From positions 1 to 24,633 of the IMG/VR virus record IMGVR_UViG_3300034374_001518: DNA of 24,633 nucleotides. One strand, 5' to 3'. The translations under genes were made by a program, and so were the position numbers. This stretch comes from a virus. The notes below the pieces were generated by a model that was given only the letters and a program-made list of their open reading frames with translations, did no database searches and had not been told where the DNA came from. Of the stretch, positions 1,223-24,160 are shown piece after piece. The number at the start of each line of letters is the position of its first letter. Within the stretch, counting starts at the first letter, position 1.

Positions 1223-2376
1223 AACAGATTTGCAATAGGCAGTTTTACGATTTACTTCATAGCAACAAAAGATTTAGAGTACACCAAGGCGGTACGCGTA
1301 GTGGTAAAACCTATGCGATTTGTCAATACCTAACTTATCTTTTAACTGCTTCGGATAAACCGCTTACGATTTCAATTATTCGTAAAACGCTGCCAGCTTT
1401 AAAAGGTTCTGTTTACCGCGACTTTATAAATATCTTAGAACAGACAGGCTTATATTATTTAGGCGTTCACAATAAGGCTGAAAACACGTTTAGATATAAC
1501 GACCACTTGGTTGAGTTTTTGAGCGTGGACGAACCGCAAAAGATTCGTGGGCGTAAACGTAACGTAGCATTTTTAAATGAGGCAAATGAATTAACGATTG
1601 AGGATTTTCGCCAGATAAATATGCGTACTACTGATTACGTTGTACTTGACTTTAACCCTTCCGACCCAATACATTGGATTTATGAAGATGTAATACCAAG
1701 AGATGATTGCGATACTTGGATTACAACATACCGCGATAACAAGTTTCTAAGCAAAGAACTTGTATTTGAAATAGAGCGTATGCGCGAACGCGACCCTGAC
1801 TATTGGCGCGTTTATGGTGAAGGTCAAAAGGCTGTATTTAGTGCAAGGCAAATATTTAACAACTGGCAATTTATACCGCGTGCAGAGTTTCCTGAATTTG
1901 AAGAAACGGTATTGGGCATTGATTTCGGATATAGTAACGATGAATTAGCGATTGTTGAGGTTGCTAAAGTAAACGATAAGCTGTACCTACACGAACTATG
2001 CTACCATAAGGGAATGACCAACCAAGATATAGCCAACTTTTTAAAGGATAAAGAATTGGATAGCGTATTGGGATTTGCTGATTCCGCAGAACCTAAAAGT
2101 ATTGAAGAACTGCGTAGGCTTGGGTGCATGATAAAACCAGCCATAAAAGGTCAAGGAAGTATCAACGCTGGTATTAGTTTAATAAAGGAGTTTGATATTA
2201 TTGTGAGCAAAGAAAGCATCAACTTAACAAAGGAGTACGCGACCTATTACTGGACTGAACTCAAAGATGGAACTATAATAAATAAACCCATTGACCGAAA
2301 TAATCATTTGATGGATGCTTTGCGTTATGCAGTTTACTCGCAATATAGTAAACGCAATGATTTCTTTGTAATATGA
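1195..2376 (+). CDS. terL: Terminase large subunit (packaging ATPase and nuclease)
   Basis: 393 residues, a normal length. The ATPase half shows Walker A GGTRSGKT at residues 32-39, the Walker B region VAFLNEANEL with the catalytic Glu129 (Asn128 replaces the usual Asp), and a coupling motif LDFNPSDP near residue 152. The C-terminal RNase H-like nuclease has its three metal-binding acidic residues at Asp243 (GIDFGYSND), Asp296 (GFADSAEP) and Asp374 (HLMDALRYA). This is the Terminase_3/Terminase_6C arrangement. It translocates DNA into the prohead through the portal and cuts the concatemer. The start at 1195 lies inside terS; the stop overlaps the next start by ATGA. The Asn-Glu Walker B is a noted variant in this group and does not suggest loss of function. 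Confidence 0.95.
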   Translation: METSRRRKVEQICNRQFYDLLHSNKRFRVHQGGTRSGKTYAICQYLTYLLTASDKPLTISIIRKTLPALKGSVYRDFINILEQTGLYYLGVHNKAENTFRYNDHLVEFLSVDEPQKIRGRKRNVAFLNEANELTIEDFRQINMRTTDYVVLDFNPSDPIHWIYEDVIPRDDCDTWITTYRDNKFLSKELVFEIERMRERDPDYWRVYGEGQKAVFSARQIFNNWQFIPRAEFPEFEETVLGIDFGYSNDELAIVEVAKVNDKLYLHELCYHKGMTNQDIANFLKDKELDSVLGFADSAEPKSIEELRRLGCMIKPAIKGQGSINAGISLIKEFDIIVSKESINLTKEYATYYWTELKDGTIINKPIDRNNHLMDALRYAVYSQYSKRNDFFVI

Positions 2377-3221
2377 TAACAGTTAATTCTCTTAGTGGCG
2401 GTAAAACAAGTTCTTATATAGCTGCAAATTACCCAGCGGATTATGACGTATTCGCTTTAGTGCGAATTGAACACGAAGCATCTAAATTTCCTGATGCTAA
2501 AATTCGCCAAGAAGTAGAAGATAGAATACAAGCACCATTCATAGCCACAGCAGAGGATGACATTATCATTTACACCATGCTTGACTTAGAGCAGTACATA
2601 GGTAGAAAGATTACTTGGGTTACGGGAAAGACATTTGATGAGGTTACAACAAGAAATGACAAGGTGTTTCTACCAAGTATGATTAGAAGATTCTGTACGG
2701 TTGAAATGAAAATAGAACCTATGTTTTATTGGTGGGCTGAGAATATAGGGGAGCCAATACAGACCCGAATAGGATTTAGAGCAAACGAAACTCGCAGAGC
2801 AAATTCAATGCTTGAAAGATGCAATGAAAATGGATTGACTGTTTTTAAGGCAACATTTGAAAAGCACAAAGATGGAAGAAATAAGTGGGAGGATGTTCCG
2901 TATCAAAAGCCTCACTTTCCTTTAATAGAAGATAATATATACAAAGACCAAGTGGAACAGTATTGGATAGACAAGCCTGTAAGATTCGCTTGGATGAATA
3001 ACTGCGTAGGATGCTTCCATAAGACACCGCTATTACTTAGAAAGATGTTTGATAAGCATCCAAACAAATTAGAGTGGTTTGCGAGGAGAGAAAGAGAGGC
3101 TTCTAATAACACCCATTGGCGGCCAGAAATGACTTATGATGAGATAAAAAAGTGGAACTCGCAATTTGAATTGTTTGATGACGACTTCAATGAATGTGAT
3201 TCAGGATATTGTGGGCTATAA
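2373..3221 (+). CDS. PP-loop ATPase, PAPS reductase-like (adenine nucleotide alpha-hydrolase superfamily)
   Basis: 282 residues. The N-terminus carries the PP-loop SLSGGKTSSY (residues 6-15), the ATP-pyrophosphatase signature of PAPS reductases, tRNA thiolases and DndC-like enzymes. Six cysteines occur, including a CVGC pair (211, 214) and Cys108, Cys275 and Cys280, which could bind a metal or iron-sulfur cluster. Family members activate a substrate through an adenylate, often for sulfur transfer; the substrate here cannot be read from sequence. It overlaps terL by four bases (ATGA) and is followed by a hairpin and a new promoter, so it is co-transcribed with the terminases although it has no known packaging role. 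A moron affecting host sulfur metabolism, nucleotides or DNA modification are options; none is shown. Confidence 0.82.
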   Translation: MITVNSLSGGKTSSYIAANYPADYDVFALVRIEHEASKFPDAKIRQEVEDRIQAPFIATAEDDIIIYTMLDLEQYIGRKITWVTGKTFDEVTTRNDKVFLPSMIRRFCTVEMKIEPMFYWWAENIGEPIQTRIGFRANETRRANSMLERCNENGLTVFKATFEKHKDGRNKWEDVPYQKPHFPLIEDNIYKDQVEQYWIDKPVRFAWMNNCVGCFHKTPLLLRKMFDKHPNKLEWFARREREASNNTHWRPEMTYDEIKKWNSQFELFDDDFNECDSGYCGL

Positions 3222-13094: not shown

Positions 13095-16000
13095 ATGGGC
13101 GTAGATTTATTCGGCAAACAGGTTCAAGATACTTACGATGCAATAATAAAAGTTGGCGATAACAATACGCTAACTTCAACTGCTAAAAGACTTTCCGATG
13201 GGCGCGGTACTGATGCGCCAATATGGTTATCAACCACTAAGATGGGTATTGGTGTTACGCCTGACCTAAATTATACGGTAACCATTAACGGTAGCTTAAA
13301 GGCTACTGATATTGATACTACTACTTTACAATTCTTAGGCGGTACAGGAACGCAAGGCACACTTTCGTGGAATACAGACGAAGAAACCGTTGATATAATA
13401 CAAAATGGTGCTACACTTCAAGTTGGTCAAGAAATACACGTACACGTTAAAAACCAAACAGGTGTTGGTATTCCTGATGGAACGCCTGTTTATGTAACAG
13501 GTACGCTTGGTTCAAGTGGTCGTTTGACTGTTGCGCCAATGATTGCCGATGGTACTATTGAGGCTAAATATTTTTTAGGTATTACAACTGAAGATATACC
13601 TAATGGCGAAGATGGTAAAGTAACCACCTTTGGTAAAATACGAGGCTTAGATACAAGTGCTTACACCGAAGGGCAAACGCTTTATGTTTCTTCTACAACT
13701 GCTGGCGCATTTCAGACTACTGCACCTATTTCGCCTAACCTTGACTTAGAAGTTGCTATTGTTATTAATGTAAGCGCAACGGTTGGTACAATTTTCGTTC
13801 GTGCCAATAACGGGCTTTATTTGCCAATGCTGCACGATGTTTATATTGATACTCCAACAGATGGTCAAGCATTAGTTTATAACGCTACTGAAGAACGCTG
13901 GGAAAATGCAGATGCTGGAGGTACTACTTCAGAAAACTTAATAATTGAAAACAATAGCCCATCTATTAGCCTGATTGACACTTCACCTTCGCCTGATGGT
14001 GGTAGGGTTGATTTAAAAAACGTCAATACAGACTTCTTAATACAGGTAGACCCTGACAACGTAGCTGATTCATCTACTATTCAATTTGAGTTAGATGGTG
14101 TAGAGCGTATGCGCCTTAATGCTACTGGATTTGGTATAGGAACAGTAAGCCCACAAGAAACATTCCACATTAATTCAGGAGTGGATAATAACGTAGCCTT
14201 ATTTGAATCAACAGATTCTACTGCCTCCATTTACTTAAAGGATAGTACAGGAGAAACTCGTTTTAGACAGTCAGCAGAAGCGTTTATAATAGAAAACGAT
14301 GTTGCTAATACGCTAGCTAATTCTTATATATCTTTTAGGATAGATGATACTGAACGCTTACGCATAGATACAGATGGTAATTTATTATTACAAACTGCTG
14401 AAAAACATATAAGATTAGAATCAAGTGGAACGCCCAATGGATATATTAGAATGGGCGATATATATACTACCAATGGTCTTGAGTTATTTGGCGATAATGC
14501 AGTAACGATTGCGTCTGACCTTTATGGTATTACGGTTAGCGATATAAATAATGCCATTACGTTTAATGCTAATGGTGTAGAGGTTGCTCGTTTTGATTCT
14601 TCTGGGCGTTTAGGATTAGGCACTACAAGCCCTGATACTAATACAAATATTCATTTACTAAATAGTGGAAATATTGCATTCAGATTAGAATCTTCAACAG
14701 CCGACGCTATAACATTACAATTTGGTTCAACAACTGAAACAGCTTACGGAAGATTGAGATACGATAGTAGTTCTCATGATATGCGCTTTTACACAAACAA
14801 CACCGAACAAATGCGCATTGACCAAGATGGAAACTTAGGTATTGGAACTACGCCTAACGCTTCATCTAAATTGCACGTCAAAGATGACGATGGCGCAGAA
14901 ATAAGACTTGAGGATAATACAAGTACAACCTTTAGTGTTTTAAGATTCGTTGGCGATGCAAGCACATACGAAAAGGGCTTAATAGCATACAATTCTGCAA
15001 ACGCATTTGATGCAAACGCCTTACACTTATTTAATTCTGCTGGAGATATTGTATTTAGAACAGATGATTCAGGTGGTACAGGCGCAGATAGAATACGCAT
15101 TGATGGAAGCGATGGAAGCGTAACGATTAATCAAACGCTTTATTTAGAAGCTAACGATTCACTTGCCTTTGAAGGTGGAAGCCATTGGATAACCTACAAC
15201 GATGGTGGTGGTAATTTTAACATTCGTGTAGGTCATAAAGATAATTCAAGTGGTACTGAAGAAACGACAGAGGCTGGCTATGTGTTGCATGATGAATGGT
15301 CGCAGTCAGGGGGTTGGAGGCAGTTCTTAGTATCTGATGTTTCAACAGCAGTAGGGGATTTACAAGGCACAGATTGGAATTGGAATTTACAGCTTCAATA
15401 CGATTACCAAACAGTAATATTATATTGGGAGGGCGACGCACGTTTAGCGACCACAAGTACTGGTGTTGAAGTGTTTGGAAACCTAAACTTTAGTGGTAAT
15501 TTATCTCTTGACGATGGCGCAAGCATTACAAGTGATTCAGGCGCACAGTTAATCACAACCAATTCAGGTGAAACTTGGACTGTCAGAAATGGTGGTGGTT
15601 CAGACCCTATTTTAACGCTACAAGACAGCTTAACCAATGTGCTTACTACGTTTGATGTAAATGGATATTTAGGAATTGGTGCTGTACCATTAAGACCTTT
15701 AGATGTTATTGGTTCTGTTGGTAGTGCTGTTGCAACTTTTGCTACCGAAATATCAGGAGGAACAAATAGAGGAATAAGAATAGTTCCTGAAACATTTGGC
15801 GCAACTATTAGTGCAGTTGGATTGAGTACTGAATTAGCATTTGGAACTTCAGATGCTGTAAGTACAGCGGAACGTATGAGGATTGATTCTAATGGGAACG
15901 TAGGCATAGGCACGAGCAGCCCTTCTGCTAAACTTGAAATAGATGGAACAGGCACTCTTTTTAAAGTAAGTGGTGCTGCTTCAAGAGAATTTTTTATTGA

Positions 16001-18863
16001 TACAACCAACCCTGACCACCTAAAAAAGAATCAAAACTTAGTATTACACGCTGACCCTTCAAATAGTCATGCAGACACTAAAATGACTTTTGATATAGAT
16101 GGCGATACAAAAATGATGATTGATTCTGATGGGCGCGTAGGTATTGGAACAGAATCATATTCTTCAAACCTTCACATTGAAGGTGATGGAAATACTGTTG
16201 TTAGAATAATAAGCTCTACTGACGAATTTAGTCAAGTTCAATTTGGTGATTCTGCTGATGTGAACGTAGGTCGTATAACCTATGACCACAGCGTAAATGA
16301 TATGTACTTTTATGTTGCTGATTCAGAGGTATTAAGAATTGATTCTGATGGTAACGTAGGTATAGGTACGAGTAGTCCCTATACTGCTTTGGACGTTTCA
16401 GGTGGAACAATAAATCAAGTAGCAATATTTAGGTCTTCAGATACAACTGCAACCATTGGCTTTGCTGATAATACAACGCCTCTAACGGCTAATCTTTCAT
16501 ACGTTACAGTAGGTGCTGTAGGTAACAATATGGTGTTTAACACCAACTTATCAGAGCGTATGCGCATAGACTCTTCAGGGAACGTAGGGATAGGAGTTTC
16601 TCCTGACTCAGACGCTGAACTTCATATTTACAGAAACGGAAGTGCGGCAAGAATAAGAGTTGAAAGAGAATTTAATCCACAATTAGATTTAGAATCTCTT
16701 AATGGATATGCTCAAATAGGAACTTTGAATAATTTTCCTTTAGCATTCCAAACTAACGGCTCAGAAAGACTTCGCATCACCTCTTCAGGTGACGTAGGTA
16801 TTGGAACGACGTCGCCTGACGCAGGAGGAACAGTTACTTTAGTGGATAGAGTTTTAAGGAGTAAAAACGTAGATGGAGATTCTGGGTTTGACTTTTACGA
16901 AAGTGGTACTGGTGGTTTAATAAGACAACGTAATAATAGACCCATTTATCTTTATACTAACAACGCCATAAGAACTACTATTGACGAAGATGGTCGTATG
17001 GGTATCAACGAAACCAGCCCATCTGCATATCTTCATATAACAAGTAGTGATACAAGTGATTTAACGCACTTCTTATTAGAAAATAATAACTCAGGGGCTG
17101 CAAGTGGCCCAAACCTTGCCTTATATAGAAACTCTGCAAGCCCAGCAAATAACGATGCTCTTGGTAATATCTTGTTTTATGGTAAGGATAGCGCAGGCAC
17201 GCAGATACCATACGCAGAGATATTTAGCGAGATAGCTGATACAACAGCAGGCGCACATGATGGTAGGCTTGTATTCTACAATTATATAGATGGCGTTGGG
17301 GATTATTCAATGGTTCTTGAAGGAAGAAAATTGGGTATTGGTGAAACTAACCCTGATGCTAATATTCATATAAAAAACACAGGACTTACTTCACAGAAGT
17401 TTGAGAACTTTGGAACAGCATATTGGAATTTAGGAATTCCTTCAGGCGAAACGTATTTTGCTTTTGACAACATTAATGACAACCTTTCTGCGCCTAAGAT
17501 GACCATCAGTTCTGCTGGTGATTTAACTGTTGCAGGAAATTTAAATGCAAGTGGAAAACTTCAACTTGGTTCAACAGCTAATTCAGCATATTTAACAGGA
17601 GATGCTAAAATATCTGCTGATGGATATGCAATGGCTAACGCTTTACTTAATGTAAGAACGACAGGAACAACAGCTACTGGAATGGTCTTTGGTATTGGCG
17701 CAACTTATCAAGACGATTACATTCAACTTGTAACAGATGGTGTAGCTGCTGTACAAATAAGCCCAACTCAAGTAGTAGAAATAAATGGTCGCTTAAACGC
17801 TAATAGTACTGTTTTCTTTTATGATGCTGTAACCTTTAATACAGATATTACATTTGATGTTTCATCATACGAATTCATTTTAAATAGAGGTGCATCTACT
17901 GCGGTTGGTCTTGAATGGCAAGCGTCAGGCGCAGTACAATGGCAGCAATACCATTACGCAAATGGAGATTTAAGTTTTTATAATGTAAATGGTAATGACT
18001 TCTTACTTGAGAATACGAATGTTGGTATTGGTAAATCGCCAAGTTATACTCTAGATGTCAATGGAACAATACAGGCTTATGATACTGTAAGAATTGATAG
18101 CAGTTCGGTTGGTAGCCCATATTTAGCATTTTATCAAGCTGGCGCACAATCTGCTTATTTGCAATACGCTGATATTGGTGATGAATTAAAGTTGCAGTCT
18201 AATGGGCTATTCACCTTAATAACAAATGGAACGAATAGTACTATTACTGTTGATGCTTCAAACAATGTAGGTATTAACAACACTTCGCCAAGCCAAGAGT
18301 TAGACGTAACTGGAGATGGAAGATTTACTGGAGATTTATTCTTAGGTCAATTTTTGTATCACAATGGCGACACCAACACCTATATGCGATTTGATGCTGA
18401 TAGGATTCGCTTATTTGCTGGTGGTGTTGAGATGCTTGATTTGGTTGAGGGTGGTACAGATTATGTTGATATTGCTGATACTGTTAGAGTAGATAAGACA
18501 AACAACTATCTTGAATGTACAGGCGATATAATTGGTTACACTTCTACTACTATTTCAGATGCAAATAAGAAAGAGAATGTTAAGACGATTGATTCGCCCA
18601 TTGATAAGATAAAGCAGATTAATGGTTATACATTTGATTGGAAGCACAATGGCAAGGCTTCTGCTGGTGTTATAGCACAAGAGGTTGAGAAGATACTCCC
18701 TGAAGCAGTACAAAAACGAGAAGTCTCTATTACAAGTGAAGAACCTTATTTAACTGTTGAGTACAATGGTATTATAGCATTGCTTATTGAAACAGTAAAA
18801 GAGCAACAAGAAATGATTGAAGATTTAAAGGCCGAGATTAACAACCTAAAAGGCTTATTCTAA
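13095..18863 (+). CDS. Giant tail fibre / appendage with GIGT repeats and C-terminal S74 chaperone
   Basis: 1922 residues. The N-terminal 270 residues carry attachment-like beta domains ('GQEIHVHVKNQTGVGIPDGT'). Residues of the middle contain about 19 imperfect repeats of a phrase '(E)RMRID.dGNVGIGT.SP...Lhi', spaced roughly 50-110 residues apart, typical of trimeric beta-rich fibres. The last 102 residues (from Ser1821) are a peptidase S74 intramolecular chaperone: SDANKKENV has the Ser and, five residues on, Lys1826 of the self-cleaving dyad; then 'INGYTFDWK', 'AGVIAQEVEKILPEAV', 'YNGIIALLIETVKEQQ' ending in a coiled coil. The chaperone trimerises the fibre and then cuts itself off. The fibre likely binds host surface polysaccharide. 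It ends in TAATG overlapping the next gene. Confidence 0.92.
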   Translation: MGVDLFGKQVQDTYDAIIKVGDNNTLTSTAKRLSDGRGTDAPIWLSTTKMGIGVTPDLNYTVTINGSLKATDIDTTTLQFLGGTGTQGTLSWNTDEETVDIIQNGATLQVGQEIHVHVKNQTGVGIPDGTPVYVTGTLGSSGRLTVAPMIADGTIEAKYFLGITTEDIPNGEDGKVTTFGKIRGLDTSAYTEGQTLYVSSTTAGAFQTTAPISPNLDLEVAIVINVSATVGTIFVRANNGLYLPMLHDVYIDTPTDGQALVYNATEERWENADAGGTTSENLIIENNSPSISLIDTSPSPDGGRVDLKNVNTDFLIQVDPDNVADSSTIQFELDGVERMRLNATGFGIGTVSPQETFHINSGVDNNVALFESTDSTASIYLKDSTGETRFRQSAEAFIIENDVANTLANSYISFRIDDTERLRIDTDGNLLLQTAEKHIRLESSGTPNGYIRMGDIYTTNGLELFGDNAVTIASDLYGITVSDINNAITFNANGVEVARFDSSGRLGLGTTSPDTNTNIHLLNSGNIAFRLESSTADAITLQFGSTTETAYGRLRYDSSSHDMRFYTNNTEQMRIDQDGNLGIGTTPNASSKLHVKDDDGAEIRLEDNTSTTFSVLRFVGDASTYEKGLIAYNSANAFDANALHLFNSAGDIVFRTDDSGGTGADRIRIDGSDGSVTINQTLYLEANDSLAFEGGSHWITYNDGGGNFNIRVGHKDNSSGTEETTEAGYVLHDEWSQSGGWRQFLVSDVSTAVGDLQGTDWNWNLQLQYDYQTVILYWEGDARLATTSTGVEVFGNLNFSGNLSLDDGASITSDSGAQLITTNSGETWTVRNGGGSDPILTLQDSLTNVLTTFDVNGYLGIGAVPLRPLDVIGSVGSAVATFATEISGGTNRGIRIVPETFGATISAVGLSTELAFGTSDAVSTAERMRIDSNGNVGIGTSSPSAKLEIDGTGTLFKVSGAASREFFIDTTNPDHLKKNQNLVLHADPSNSHADTKMTFDIDGDTKMMIDSDGRVGIGTESYSSNLHIEGDGNTVVRIISSTDEFSQVQFGDSADVNVGRITYDHSVNDMYFYVADSEVLRIDSDGNVGIGTSSPYTALDVSGGTINQVAIFRSSDTTATIGFADNTTPLTANLSYVTVGAVGNNMVFNTNLSERMRIDSSGNVGIGVSPDSDAELHIYRNGSAARIRVEREFNPQLDLESLNGYAQIGTLNNFPLAFQTNGSERLRITSSGDVGIGTTSPDAGGTVTLVDRVLRSKNVDGDSGFDFYESGTGGLIRQRNNRPIYLYTNNAIRTTIDEDGRMGINETSPSAYLHITSSDTSDLTHFLLENNNSGAASGPNLALYRNSASPANNDALGNILFYGKDSAGTQIPYAEIFSEIADTTAGAHDGRLVFYNYIDGVGDYSMVLEGRKLGIGETNPDANIHIKNTGLTSQKFENFGTAYWNLGIPSGETYFAFDNINDNLSAPKMTISSAGDLTVAGNLNASGKLQLGSTANSAYLTGDAKISADGYAMANALLNVRTTGTTATGMVFGIGATYQDDYIQLVTDGVAAVQISPTQVVEINGRLNANSTVFFYDAVTFNTDITFDVSSYEFILNRGASTAVGLEWQASGAVQWQQYHYANGDLSFYNVNGNDFLLENTNVGIGKSPSYTLDVNGTIQAYDTVRIDSSSVGSPYLAFYQAGAQSAYLQYADIGDELKLQSNGLFTLITNGTNSTITVDASNNVGINNTSPSQELDVTGDGRFTGDLFLGQFLYHNGDTNTYMRFDADRIRLFAGGVEMLDLVEGGTDYVDIADTVRVDKTNNYLECTGDIIGYTSTTISDANKKENVKTIDSPIDKIKQINGYTFDWKHNGKASAGVIAQEVEKILPEAVQKREVSITSEEPYLTVEYNGIIALLIETVKEQQEMIEDLKAEINNLKGLF

Positions 18864-19889: not shown

Positions 19890-20141
19890 ATGGCAAACAA
19901 GATTTCAAAGGAACACTTAGAAAAGCTACAAGAGCAAGTTCAAAAGTTAAATGCTATTAAGCACGACCTTGGCGTTTTAGAAATGCAGAAGCACGGTTTA
20001 TTACACGCTGCTGCGCAGATTCAAGACGAACAACAAAAGCTAAAAATTGAACTTGAGGACTTGCACGGTAAAATTTCTATTAACCTTGAAGATGGGTCAT
20101 TTGAATCTATCGTAGAAGACGCTGAAGTAGTTGAAGGGTAA
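19890..20141 (+). CDS. Small coiled-coil protein (83 residues)
   Basis: Residues 5-65 are an almost uninterrupted helix with heptad Leu/Ile spacing (KEHLEKLQEQVQKLNAIKHD, EQQKLKIELEDLHGKI), ending in an acidic tail (SIVEDAEVVEG). Resembles small helical phage proteins found near tail tube genes. Its stop overlaps the next start (TAATG). It may be an assembly chaperone or a small structural protein; no family recognised. Confidence 0.7.
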   Translation: MANKISKEHLEKLQEQVQKLNAIKHDLGVLEMQKHGLLHAAAQIQDEQQKLKIELEDLHGKISINLEDGSFESIVEDAEVVEG

Positions 20142-20626
20142 TGGCACTTTTACAGTCATCTGACATACTCATTGAAGTTGATGGGACTGTAATTGGTCAT
20201 AGCAAAGACAGTACGTTTAGCTTAGAAGTTGATTTAGCCAATACTTCTACAAAGGCTTCAGGCGGTTGGCTTGAATTTATGCAAGGACTGCGTAGTGGTC
20301 GCGTTGCAGTTTCAGGGCTAACCAATTATTCCGATACTTTAAACTTTGAGCAGCTTGCTGGGTATATAATTACTCGGCAAGTTGTTACTGTTTATTTCAA
20401 AGACTTTGGGGGTGGCGATTTAGTACTTGGCGGTACTGCGTTTGTAGATAACGTTTCAGAAACTGCGGAATACGAAAGCATAACAACTTTTAATGTAGAT
20501 TTTACGCTACACAACACAAGACCGTTTACGCGCCCACAATTTCACCTTATTTATCCAGACCAACGCGTGTGGAATAATATCTTTGAACAATGGAATTTAC
20601 TGGCTACGTTGTGGCAAAACACATAA
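20141..20626 (+). CDS. Tail tube protein paralogue 1 (TP901-1 major tail protein type)
   Basis: 161 residues. It shares with the next gene the block 'IGHS.DSTFSLEVDLANTSTKASGGW.EFMQGLRSGRVAVSGL' (quoted in part), then 'YSDTLNFEQLAGYIITR', which is the tail tube fold of the TP901-1 major tail protein type ('...ig.s.~~sl....~~~~t.K.s.Gw.e...G.~..~is~dgl.~~~'). It differs from the second copy by lacking its short N-terminal insert and by having about 35 additional C-terminal residues (RPFTRPQFHLIYPDQRVWNN...). It may be a minor tube or distal tube subunit or an alternative tube protein. Ends 13 bases before a promoter element. Confidence 0.8.
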   Translation: MALLQSSDILIEVDGTVIGHSKDSTFSLEVDLANTSTKASGGWLEFMQGLRSGRVAVSGLTNYSDTLNFEQLAGYIITRQVVTVYFKDFGGGDLVLGGTAFVDNVSETAEYESITTFNVDFTLHNTRPFTRPQFHLIYPDQRVWNNIFEQWNLLATLWQNT

Positions 20627-20679: not shown

Positions 20680-21102
20680 ATGGCTACAACAGGAGTATTT
20701 AATGGAACTAACCTTGTTCTCGCAGTAGGTTCTTCAGGAAGCGAAGTTACTATTGGGCATACTACAAGCTGCTCAATGAGTTTTTCACACGATTTGCCTG
20801 AAGCAACTACTAAAGATAGCAGCGGTTGGGCTGAATTTATTAGCGGTGTTCGTGGTGCTACTATTTCTTTTGATGGATTAGTTGATTATAACGATACCAC
20901 TAACGCTGAAGAACTTGCAGACTACATTATCAACCGTACAGCGATTTCTTTCGTATTCGGAACTAGTGTGTCAGGTGATTCAGTTTACACAGGAACAGGA
21001 TACATTGATAGTATTGAGGTTTCTGCTGATATGGAAGCACCAGTTTCTTACAGCGGTTCAATTACCGTTACAGGTGCTATTACCAAAGCGACTAACGCTT
21101 AA
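20680..21102 (+). CDS. Tail tube protein paralogue 2, probable major tail protein
   Basis: 140 residues, with the tail tube pattern 'LVLAVGSSGSEVTIGHTTSC', 'TTKDSSGWAEFISGVRGATI', 'YNDTTNAEELADYIINRT' and 'GTGYIDSIEVSADMEAPVSY', closely paralleling the upstream gene and matching the TP901-1 major tail protein type. It is the better candidate for the main tube subunit: it has its own promoter, a long leader, highly biased codons (GCT, GTT, ACT, TCT) like the capsid gene, and a strong hairpin behind it. It polymerises on the tape measure to form the tail tube. Confidence 0.85.
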   Translation: MATTGVFNGTNLVLAVGSSGSEVTIGHTTSCSMSFSHDLPEATTKDSSGWAEFISGVRGATISFDGLVDYNDTTNAEELADYIINRTAISFVFGTSVSGDSVYTGTGYIDSIEVSADMEAPVSYSGSITVTGAITKATNA

Positions 21103-21182: not shown

Positions 21183-21563
21183 ATGGCAAACAGAAAACGA
21201 GGGTATTACACCACAAAGCTGGGCGGTAAGAACCGCACCATGCACTTTTCAATGAACTTTTGGGCAAACTTTACTGACCTTATGGGCGTTAGCCTTGAGG
21301 GGGTTGGTAAGATATTTGAAGGCGGTTTAAGCCTTAAAGCAATACGCGCCCTAATTTATTCTGCATTATTAGCGCAAGACCAAGAGCAAGGCGTTGAACC
21401 TGACTACAACGAGTTTACAGTTGGTTCTTGGTTAGAGGATTTAGAAGCGGAACTGCTAAACGATATTATCAATGCTATGCTTGAAAGTCGCATATTAGGT
21501 AACGAACTTAATATGGGTATTGAGCGTAACGTAAAGCGCACTACTAAAAACGAGGGAAAGTAA
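21183..21563 (+). CDS. Tail assembly chaperone, short form (gpG-like)
   Basis: 126 residues. 'TTKLGGKNRTMHFSMNFWANF' followed by 'GGLSLKAIRALIYSALLAQD' and 'VGSWLEDLEAELLNDIINAM' is the helical pattern of small tail assembly chaperones (lambda gpG analogues) placed directly before the tape measure gene. The last sense codons are GAG GGA AAG followed by TAA; they contain the heptamer G GGA AAG that allows a -1 shift to make the long form. The chaperone coats the tape measure and recruits tail tube subunits. Product ratio would be set by the shift frequency. Confidence 0.87.
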   Translation: MANRKRGYYTTKLGGKNRTMHFSMNFWANFTDLMGVSLEGVGKIFEGGLSLKAIRALIYSALLAQDQEQGVEPDYNEFTVGSWLEDLEAELLNDIINAMLESRILGNELNMGIERNVKRTTKNEGK

Positions 21564-21616
21564 ACAGCCGACTTGACTGGGAAACCCTTTTAGACTTCTA
21601 TATTGGACAGGTCGGC
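21554..21616 (+). promoter_or_regulatory. Programmed -1 ribosomal frameshift signal (heptamer plus stem)
   Basis: The heptamer GGGAAAG (21554-21560) is in the correct phase (G GGA AAG, X XXY YYZ) and abuts the zero-frame TAA (21561-21563). Six bases later begins a 9-bp stem, GCCGACTTG (21567-21575) with CAGGTCGGC (21608-21616), one G:T pair, enclosing a 32-base loop. Spacing and phase are those of known -1 sites; the same heptamer acts in lambda G/GT. After the shift, reading continues with GTA AAC. Confidence 0.88.
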
Positions 21617-21901
21617 ATAGACCCTGAAAAGTTTTGGGGCAACACGTGGAAAGAAAACCAACTATTAGGCGAGGCGCACATGATTAAGCTGAACGTAAGT
21701 TGGGAACAAACACGTTTTATAGCCTCTATGCTTATCAATGTAAACGTAGATAAAAAGGCTAAAATGGTTCGCCCTGAGCAATTATTTCCATTACCACAAG
21801 ACGTATATACCGAGCGCGGTAAACCTAAATCAACGCCTGAACAATACGAGAAATTCAAAGCAAGAGCGGACGCTGCCTTACAAGAAAGGGCAAAGTCTTA
21901 A
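21560..21901 (+). CDS. Tail assembly chaperone T extension, expressed by -1 frameshift (gpGT-like)
   Basis: This frame is open from the slip site to 21901 and adds 113 residues to the 126 of the short form, for a 239-residue fusion. It starts VNSRLDWETLLDFYIGQVGI and continues DPEKFWGNTWKENQLLGEAH, then MIKLNVSWEQTRFIASMLI. An ATG at 21680 could start only the last 73 residues and would discard a clearly coding stretch (in-frame residues conserved in style: 'DWE.L..fyiG..GidPe.Fw..T..E'), which fits T-domains of siphovirus tail chaperones. The T part binds tail tube protein while the G part coats the tape measure. Treat 21183-21560 joined to 21560-21901 as one product. Confidence 0.85.
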   Translation, partial: VNSRLDWETLLDFYIGQVGIDPEKFWGNTWKENQLLGEAHMIKLNVSWEQTRFIASMLINVNVDKKAKMVRPEQLFPLPQDVYTERGKPKSTPEQYEKFKARADAALQERAKS

Positions 21902-21931: not shown

Positions 21932-24160
21932 ATGGCGGATAGCTTATTACGGGTAGTACTCAAAGGTGATGCTACCCAGTTAAATTCTTCATTAAAAACC
22001 GCTTCTGCTCGACTAACAGCGTTTGGCTCAAAAATGCAAGGTGTTGCTAGTCAGATGCGCTCTATATCTATACCGTTGGCTATTGCTGGGGGTGCTGCTG
22101 TTAAAATGGCTGCAACCTTTGACAAGTCAATGACCCAAATAAAATCTTTAGTTGGTGTTGCTGGCGATGAAGTTGATGCAATGGGCGAACGCGTTAAAAC
22201 TATGTCCACGGATATAAGCGTTAGTTCAAACGAAGCTGCTGAAGCATTATTCTTTATTACTTCTGCTGGATTACGTGGCGAAGAAGCAATGCAAGTGTTA
22301 GAGGCTTCAATGAAAGCTGCTTCCGTAGGTTTAGGTGATACTAAAACCGTAGCTGACCTTGCAACTTCTGCAATGAACGCTTATGGTTCTGAAGTGCTTT
22401 CTGCTGCCGATGCAACTGACGTAATGGTTAGTGCGGTTCGTGAAGGTAAATTAGAAGCAAGCGAATTAGCTGGCTCAATGGGGCGAGTATTGCCAATAGC
22501 AAGTGCTATGAGCATACGTTTTGACGAAGTAGGTGCTGCCTTTGCTGCACTTTCAAGAACGGGTACAAATGCTGCTGAAGCTGCTACACAAATACGAGCA
22601 ATTTTAACTTCACTTTTAAAACCAACTGCTGATGCTAAAAAAGCCTTAGCAGAAATGAATTTAAGTTCAGAAGGGTTACGTCAACAAATAAGAGAAAAAG
22701 GGTTATTATCTGCACTCGAAACGCTGAAAACAAGTTTTGAGGGCAATGATGATGCGACACAACGCGTATTTGGAAATGTTCGTGCGCTTTTACCAATATA
22801 TGACTTACTTGGTGCAAACGTTCAAACTACTCGTGATATATTTGATAGCATGACTAAAAGTGCTGGTGCTACTGAAAAAGCATTTGGCACTTTACAAGAA
22901 AGCGCAGAATTTAAGTTGCGTAAATCACTTAAAGGCGTTCAAAATTCACTTACTGATGTTGGCGGTGTAATTTTAGAAAGTTTACTACCACATATTCAAG
23001 ACCTTTCTGAAAGTATAAAAGGTTTATTTGAGGACTTTAAAACATTAGATGAAGATACTCAAAAGGCATATATACGACTTGGTGAAATTATTGTAGTTGC
23101 GCCATTAATAGTTAGTGCAATAGGGACAATAACAAGAGCAATAGGTGGTCTATCTAGTGCTATTGTATTTTTAACTAGTTCGGCAGCTTTAGGCAAACTA
23201 AAAACTCTACTTCCTGTTTTGGGTCAAGTAGCTGCTTTAGGTTATTTAGGAGTAAAAGCAGCAGATGAATTAACAGGCGAAGTTGCGCCTGATGTTAGCT
23301 TATGGGAACGTCTTAAAATTGGTGTTTCCGGATTAATTGACCCTATGGCTGCGGTCAATAATTTGATTGGCGCACAAGTTGCAGCTTCTAAAGAATCTAA
23401 AAAAGCTACTGAAGATAAAATTGCTGCTGATGAACAAGCTGTAAAAGTAGCTGGCGTTCTTTTAGATTTACAAGATAAATTAAATAAACCTACTGCCACT
23501 GCAAGTGGCGGTGCTGCTGCAAAAGCAACGGGAGTTAGTATTCCAACATTAGAAGATGATTTAACTTCAATAGAAACACAAGCAAACGAAACAGCAAAGG
23601 CATTAGATATTATGCTTGCTGGTGATTCTGATTTAACTTATGCTTTAGCAACTGATTCAGCTTCAATAGAATATTTTGGAAATATAGTTGCCGATACAGC
23701 AGCAAAAGTACGCGACCCATTACAGCAAATAGGAGAAACAGTAAACGAAACAACTAAGTCGGTCAGCAACCTAACGCTTATGATAGCACGCGATTTAGCT
23801 GGTGCTTTTGAAGCTGTACTTAATGGCGAAAACTTCTTTAGGTCAATGATTGAAACACTTAAAGAATTAGTTAAGCGTTTGTTGGCTGCTGCTGCTGCTG
23901 CTGCACTTTTAGCCTTGTTTACAGGTGGTAATTTTGGTGCTATATTTAGCGGTCTTTCAGGTTTAAATCTAAACGCAAACGGTATGTCAGGTGGCGGTTC
24001 AGTAGGTACGCCTACATTGGGAACTACTGGAAATATACCAGCTAAGATTACGCCAAATGGAGGTGTAAACTTAACAGGTCAGTTTAGAATTGATGGACAG
24101 GATTTAGTAGTGGCTGTGGAGCGAGCAAACAAGCAAAGAGGAAACTTTATTACAGGATAA
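21932..24160 (+). CDS. Tail tape measure protein (TP901 core type)
   Basis: 742 residues. The N-terminal 330 residues match the TP901-type tape measure core: 'KMAATFDKSMTQIKSLVGVAG', 'VSSNEAAEALFFITSAGLRG', 'DLATSAMNAYGSEVLSAADA', 'EASELAGSMGRVLPIASAM', 'AAFAALSRTGTNAAEAATQIRAIL' (each quoted within limits). Hydrophobic segments lie near residues 385-430 and 648-668, the second including seven consecutive alanines. The C-terminus is Gly-rich. The protein sets tail length and is ejected ahead of the DNA; at about 0.15 nm per residue the tail would be near 110 nm. It follows the frameshifted chaperone gene, the expected order. Own promoter at 21908. Confidence 0.93.
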   Translation: MADSLLRVVLKGDATQLNSSLKTASARLTAFGSKMQGVASQMRSISIPLAIAGGAAVKMAATFDKSMTQIKSLVGVAGDEVDAMGERVKTMSTDISVSSNEAAEALFFITSAGLRGEEAMQVLEASMKAASVGLGDTKTVADLATSAMNAYGSEVLSAADATDVMVSAVREGKLEASELAGSMGRVLPIASAMSIRFDEVGAAFAALSRTGTNAAEAATQIRAILTSLLKPTADAKKALAEMNLSSEGLRQQIREKGLLSALETLKTSFEGNDDATQRVFGNVRALLPIYDLLGANVQTTRDIFDSMTKSAGATEKAFGTLQESAEFKLRKSLKGVQNSLTDVGGVILESLLPHIQDLSESIKGLFEDFKTLDEDTQKAYIRLGEIIVVAPLIVSAIGTITRAIGGLSSAIVFLTSSAALGKLKTLLPVLGQVAALGYLGVKAADELTGEVAPDVSLWERLKIGVSGLIDPMAAVNNLIGAQVAASKESKKATEDKIAADEQAVKVAGVLLDLQDKLNKPTATASGGAAAKATGVSIPTLEDDLTSIETQANETAKALDIMLAGDSDLTYALATDSASIEYFGNIVADTAAKVRDPLQQIGETVNETTKSVSNLTLMIARDLAGAFEAVLNGENFFRSMIETLKELVKRLLAAAAAAALLALFTGGNFGAIFSGLSGLNLNANGMSGGGSVGTPTLGTTGNIPAKITPNGGVNLTGQFRIDGQDLVVAVERANKQRGNFITG
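23885..23905 (+). repeat. GCT trinucleotide run in the tape measure gene
   Basis: Six GCT repeats plus GCA encode seven alanines, in frame (residues 652-658). A change in unit number would alter length by whole residues only. Confidence 0.8.

Follow-up and report, generated by a model that had tools for sequence, protein, structure and literature searches.

Organization of the tail gene locus

We analysed a window of 24,633 nt from an uncultured tailed phage, in which the G/T locus and the tail tube (20680-21102) and tape measure genes beside it lie on the plus strand. Toward its end, genes follow one another in the order tail tube, G, T and tape measure, and the reading frames of G and T overlap. 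The tail tube (major tail) protein, the presumed partner of the T domain, is encoded at 20680-21102 (PF06199, E = 1.5e-16; phrog_1407, E = 1.4e-26), and the tape measure protein, the presumed client of the G domain, at 21932-24160 (PF10145, E = 6.5e-31; phrog_1533, E = 2.5e-69). Between them, the zero-frame ORF at 21183-21563 encodes a predicted 126-aa gpG-like tail assembly chaperone, assigned by its gene position and by its match to phrog_2115, ‘tail protein’ (E = 3e-8), which 17 of 17 family members match too. G has no confident Pfam match, a PDB profile search with it returned nothing, and its structure was modelled too poorly for a fold search (pLDDT 48). The T domain, with 113 codons and a stop, occupies the −1 frame at 21560-21901 and is recognized by selection on its codons, by phrog_16333 (matched in 14 of 14 members) and by a weak match to PF09550, Phage_TAC_6 (4 of 14 members, best E = 0.0014), in which the window’s own T falls below the cut-off. 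The T model reaches a pLDDT of 75, and its best match in a viral library is weak (E = 1.2e-3) and to an unnamed protein. A search of 50,697 phage records returned no match to T at E ≤ 1 and no isolated phage encoding it.

Several neighbouring genes have features of their own. A gene at 20141-20626 is adjacent to the one at 20680-21102 and also matches phrog_1407, its PF06199 match being weak; the two probably arose by duplication of a tail tube gene. A tail fibre gene at 13095-18863, which separates the head-completion genes from the tail tube genes, encodes 1922 aa with repeated GIGTxSP-type motifs and C-terminal matches to tail-fibre families. The 282-aa gene at 2373-3221, between terminase and portal, lacks a confident Pfam match, and the sequence SGGKTSSYIA at its N-terminus is similar to a PAPS-reductase-like nucleotide-binding motif.

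A Shine–Dalgarno-like motif precedes none of the 26 gene starts between 462 and 21932 of the window, and missing Shine–Dalgarno motifs are expected for Bacteroidota phages. The terminase is nearest to those of Bacteroides phages, and many Flavobacterium phages match it too. On these two grounds, the phage likely infects Bacteroidota. Three MAG contigs in the T search carry archaeal, gammaproteobacterial and alphaproteobacterial labels, which we set aside as uninformative about the host, the contigs probably being misbinned phage. A literature search found no papers on this phage group.

A candidate slip site at the end of G

The zero-frame ORF ends with the codons GAG GGA AAG TAA, and the −1 frame opens at 21548, giving a 16-nt overlap of the two frames (21548-21563). 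Within it, G_GGA_AAG at 21554-21560 is the sole in-phase heptamer of the form X_XXY_YYZ. A 6-nt spacer follows (21561-21566), opening with the zero-frame stop TAA (21561-21563), and then a putative stimulatory stem, whose 5′ arm GCCGACTTG (21567-21575) pairs with the 3′ arm CAGGTCGGC (21608-21616) around a 32-nt loop. The −1 frame runs for 113 codons (21560-21898) to a stop at 21899-21901; the predicted GT fusion has 239 residues, with 40 T codons upstream of an ATG at 21680-21682. The original prediction had described an in-phase G GGA AAG just 5′ of the zero-frame stop, a 6-base spacer, a −1 frame open for 113 codons to 21901, a 239-residue fusion and 40 residues before the ATG, and all of these coordinates are exact. 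Its 9-bp stem also has the correct arms and positions, and amounts to nine pairs only if a G-U wobble is counted beside the eight Watson–Crick pairs. Stop read-through as a route to T is excluded, because the zero frame contains many stops beyond 21563.

Considered as a single sequence, the window makes a suggestive to moderate case, because three of its measures lie near chance. GGGAAAG occurs twice in the whole window, matching chance expectation; hairpins of at least nine pairs, with G-U allowed, begin at about 1% of window positions; and the fold of 21548-21640 is unremarkable for the lone sequence (z = −1.18). Among the related sequences, conservation and covariation go far beyond chance, and the comparison decides the case.

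Conservation of the slip site among relatives

IMG/VR and genome contigs were searched three times for relatives, and the arrangement was scored where a contig spans the junction. The search of viral contigs with G yielded 80 loci, 79 of which reach the end of G. Every one of the 79 has a heptamer in phase close to the zero-frame stop, together with a −1 frame that is open for 103-118 codons, running off the contig in two. Searching viral and genome contigs with T yielded 77 loci (L083-L159), which are partly contigs already found with G and include three genome contigs; the G ORF, the heptamer and the −1 frame are present in all 77. Heptamer conservation, proposed earlier as a check, is therefore complete: an in-phase heptamer occurs in every junction-spanning relative. 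The dominant type is GGGAAAG, and the rest are A_AAA_AAA runs, one GGGAAAC (L084) and one ambiguous locus with two candidates (L085). Several relatives have their zero-frame stop displaced to 16-37 nt from the heptamer start, with the heptamer unmoved, which indicates that the slip site itself is kept, not its nearness to the stop. A relative that had lost both heptamer and stem and expressed its −1 frame separately, the case that was to count against the original prediction, was not seen; where GGGAAAG is lost, another in-phase heptamer replaces it.

These counts bear on the reading in which a chance heptamer coincides with a frameshift introduced into one contig by sequencing or assembly, or with a decaying gene. 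The chance-level heptamer count in the window and its fold z of −1.2 are what this reading would lead one to expect. The same layout, however, recurs in all junction-spanning relatives from many metagenomes, and T is under purifying selection. We assign this reading a negligible probability; conservation across the group already refutes it.

Evidence that T is made as a fusion with G

ORF callers list 21680-21901 as a separate ORF and so miss the fusion and the 40 residues before the ATG, as the original prediction had anticipated. These calls favour a reading in which G and T are separately initiated genes, T starting at ATG 21680 or by termination–reinitiation, and a T-like ORF in the distant Cellulophaga phage phi10:1 is likewise annotated with its own ATG. 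The relatives argue against it. Of 59 distinct T sequences, only 17 have methionine at the ATG position, and the best-conserved part of T, LDWxxLLDYYIGQVGINPxxFWxxTWxENQLLGE, lies upstream of the ATG. Mean identity to the window is 0.70 in the pre-ATG part and 0.59 and 0.45 in the later parts, and pN/pS is 0.198 in T codons 3-40 and 0.276 and 0.507 in the later parts; the 40 pre-ATG residues are the best conserved and are under purifying selection. Moreover, the −1 frame from 21548 to 21679 contains no ATG, GTG or TTG, the in-phase heptamer is conserved, and the stem covaries. We consider separately initiated genes extremely unlikely and reject an independent start at ATG 21680; T is predicted to be made only as the GT fusion.

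The phi10:1 junction (NC_021802.1, L082) is organized differently. In the same place, before gp086, an unannotated ORF shows weak homology to G (26% identity, E = 5e-3). This G-like ORF ends at an A8G run (L082:3832-3860), with no GGGAAAG. The T-like ORF occupies the +1 (or −2) frame. The junction is possibly another frameshift type.

Covariation of the downstream stem

The stem starts 6 nt past the heptamer in the window; the spacer in stem-bearing relatives is 4-6 nt, usually 6. On an ungapped alignment of 31 sequences, RNAalifold predicts the same stem with seven of its nine pairs. Over the nine pairs, 95.6% of cells are paired (89.0 ± 1.1 when shuffled), 15 cells are changed on both sides (4.6 ± 1.6 when shuffled) and the covariation score is 0.262 (0.146 ± 0.014 when shuffled), values for paired fraction, double changes and covariation that none of 500 shuffles reaches. 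The counts of pairs or types are not clearly above shuffling (64 of 500 each). Slid registers of the stem pair in just 10-52%. In an unconstrained scan for helices of at least 5 bp across 110 nt and 60 distinct sequences, the helix 14-22/55-63, which corresponds to window positions 21567-21575/21608-21616, has the highest covariation by a wide margin; the covariation of the stem, which the original prediction had singled out for checking, is borne out. In the T codons, pS is lowest in the first six (0.34 versus about 0.5-0.86 elsewhere), where most of the 5′ arm lies.

The pair nearest to the ribosome, 21567/21616, is G-C in 40 of 60 sequences and C-G in 17. Because its 5′ side falls at the second position of a Ser/Thr codon, the change AGC to TCC (both Ser) is frequent there; on the 3′ side of the swap, the Gly codon GGC becomes GGG. 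On a tree built without the codons of this pair, changes number about 10 on one side of it and about 11 on the other. For six independent pairs on supported branches, the partner co-changes in 5.6 on average and is never opposed (median p = 0.031). The swap between G-C and C-G at the base of the stem thus recurs independently on the tree, as reconstructed from these sequences. The tree test is limited to 21567/21616, the remaining pairs having too few independent changes.

Since the window’s genes are without Shine–Dalgarno sites, a hairpin, not a Shine–Dalgarno-like element, is the likely stimulator. The original prediction had added that the 32-base loop could take part in a pseudoknot by pairing with downstream sequence. 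The loop is long enough, and a small second hairpin lies just downstream, at about 21622-21638. The comparative scan gave this suggestion no support: no helix joining the loop to sequence within 110 nt approaches the main stem in covariation. The candidates, 24-28/92-96 and 24-29/79-84, mostly coincide with conserved W and FW codons, at which covariation is uninformative. A pseudoknot stimulator is, in our judgement, improbable.

A clade without the stem

A_AAA_AAA replaces the slip site at the end of G, and the stem is absent, in L037, L038, L050, L053, L054, L066 and L067, as well as in L070, L071, L073, L074, L078 and L079. At the homologous place, the duplex in stem-less A-run members amounts to 2-6 kcal/mol, versus a mean of 14.5 kcal/mol in GGGAAAG members whose heptamer is immediately followed by the stop. 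A rule that an A-run heptamer accompanies stem loss is weakened by four members (L034, L083, L106 and L149) that have GGGAAAG and lack the homologous stem. Those four group with the A-run members (support 82 on a quick tree), which makes stem loss look like a property of a clade; L053 and L084 are placed elsewhere, with weak support. By this grouping of sequences, the stem was lost, or never gained, in one clade. The stem would consequently be a common stimulator and not a strict requirement.

The A-runs raise the question of whether the fusion is produced by transcriptional slippage instead of ribosomal frameshifting. Polymerase slippage is plausible on the A-runs found here in some relatives (AAAAAAAAAC, L037 group), and these loci may have switched to transcriptional slippage or to a slip site that works without a stem. 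The window’s own site, however, is GGGAAAG, a known ribosomal slip heptamer with homopolymers of at most three; the zero-frame stop comes directly after it, and a covarying hairpin stands at a ribosome-sized spacing. For the window, transcriptional slippage is highly improbable, and ribosomal frameshifting is the reading that we retain.

Comparison with lambda and proposed mechanism

Levin, Hendrix and Casjens reportedly described the −1 programmed frameshift of phage lambda G/GT in 1993. Its slip site is G_GGA_AAG (PMC7618472), in agreement with the original prediction that the heptamer is shared with lambda. This heptamer is highly shift-prone in Escherichia coli, and the lambda gpG and gpGT proteins, made at about 30:1, link the tape measure and tail tube proteins (PMC5009743). 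The window resembles lambda in having the identical heptamer at the end of its G gene, in its predicted G and GT products and in their position between the tail tube and tape measure genes. Unlike lambda, its T has no detectable similarity to any phage record at E ≤ 1. The covarying hairpin 6 nt past the heptamer is seen in this group; lambda was compared by heptamer, products and gene position. As in the frameshift pairs of PMC5009743, two overlapping ORFs precede the tape measure gene, the shift is −1, and the heptamer varies among relatives; unlike those pairs, these belong to an uncultivated, probably Bacteroidota-infecting group with a stem in most lineages and none in one clade.

We conclude, with high confidence, that the locus is a −1 programmed ribosomal frameshift cassette of the lambda G/GT tail-assembly-chaperone kind. 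Sequence comparison establishes its frames, its heptamer, coding selection on T from the first conserved codons and its covarying stem; we infer that slippage occurs, at what ratio, and which proteins make contact. Most ribosomes would terminate at TAA 21561, producing the 126-residue G. A minority would pause at the hairpin 6 nt downstream with tRNA-Gly and tRNA-Lys on GGA AAG, slip one base back to GGG AAA, and continue for 113 codons to yield the 239-residue GT. The roles of the two proteins are carried over from lambda by analogy: the tape measure protein (21932-24160) would be coated with many copies of G and few of GT, whose T portion would bring in the tail tube protein (20680-21102).

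More tentatively, and with the odds clearly against it, the route to the fusion may have changed within the group while the coding outcome stayed the same. Most members would use G_GGA_AAG with a compensatorily tuned hairpin, on host ribosomes that probably make no use of Shine–Dalgarno stimulators, and one clade would be hairpin-less, in part with A-runs that may act by transcriptional slippage. The mechanism is well known in phages and not new in kind; the additions are the covariation evidence and the stem-less clade, through which a trade between slip site and stimulator can be tested. The compensatory mutations in the stem provide a clean comparative case for an RNA stimulator of phage tail frameshifting. 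A large uncultivated phage group, whose T is absent from the phage record collection, thus appears to carry a lambda-type tail frameshift, and standard ORF calling would truncate its second gene.
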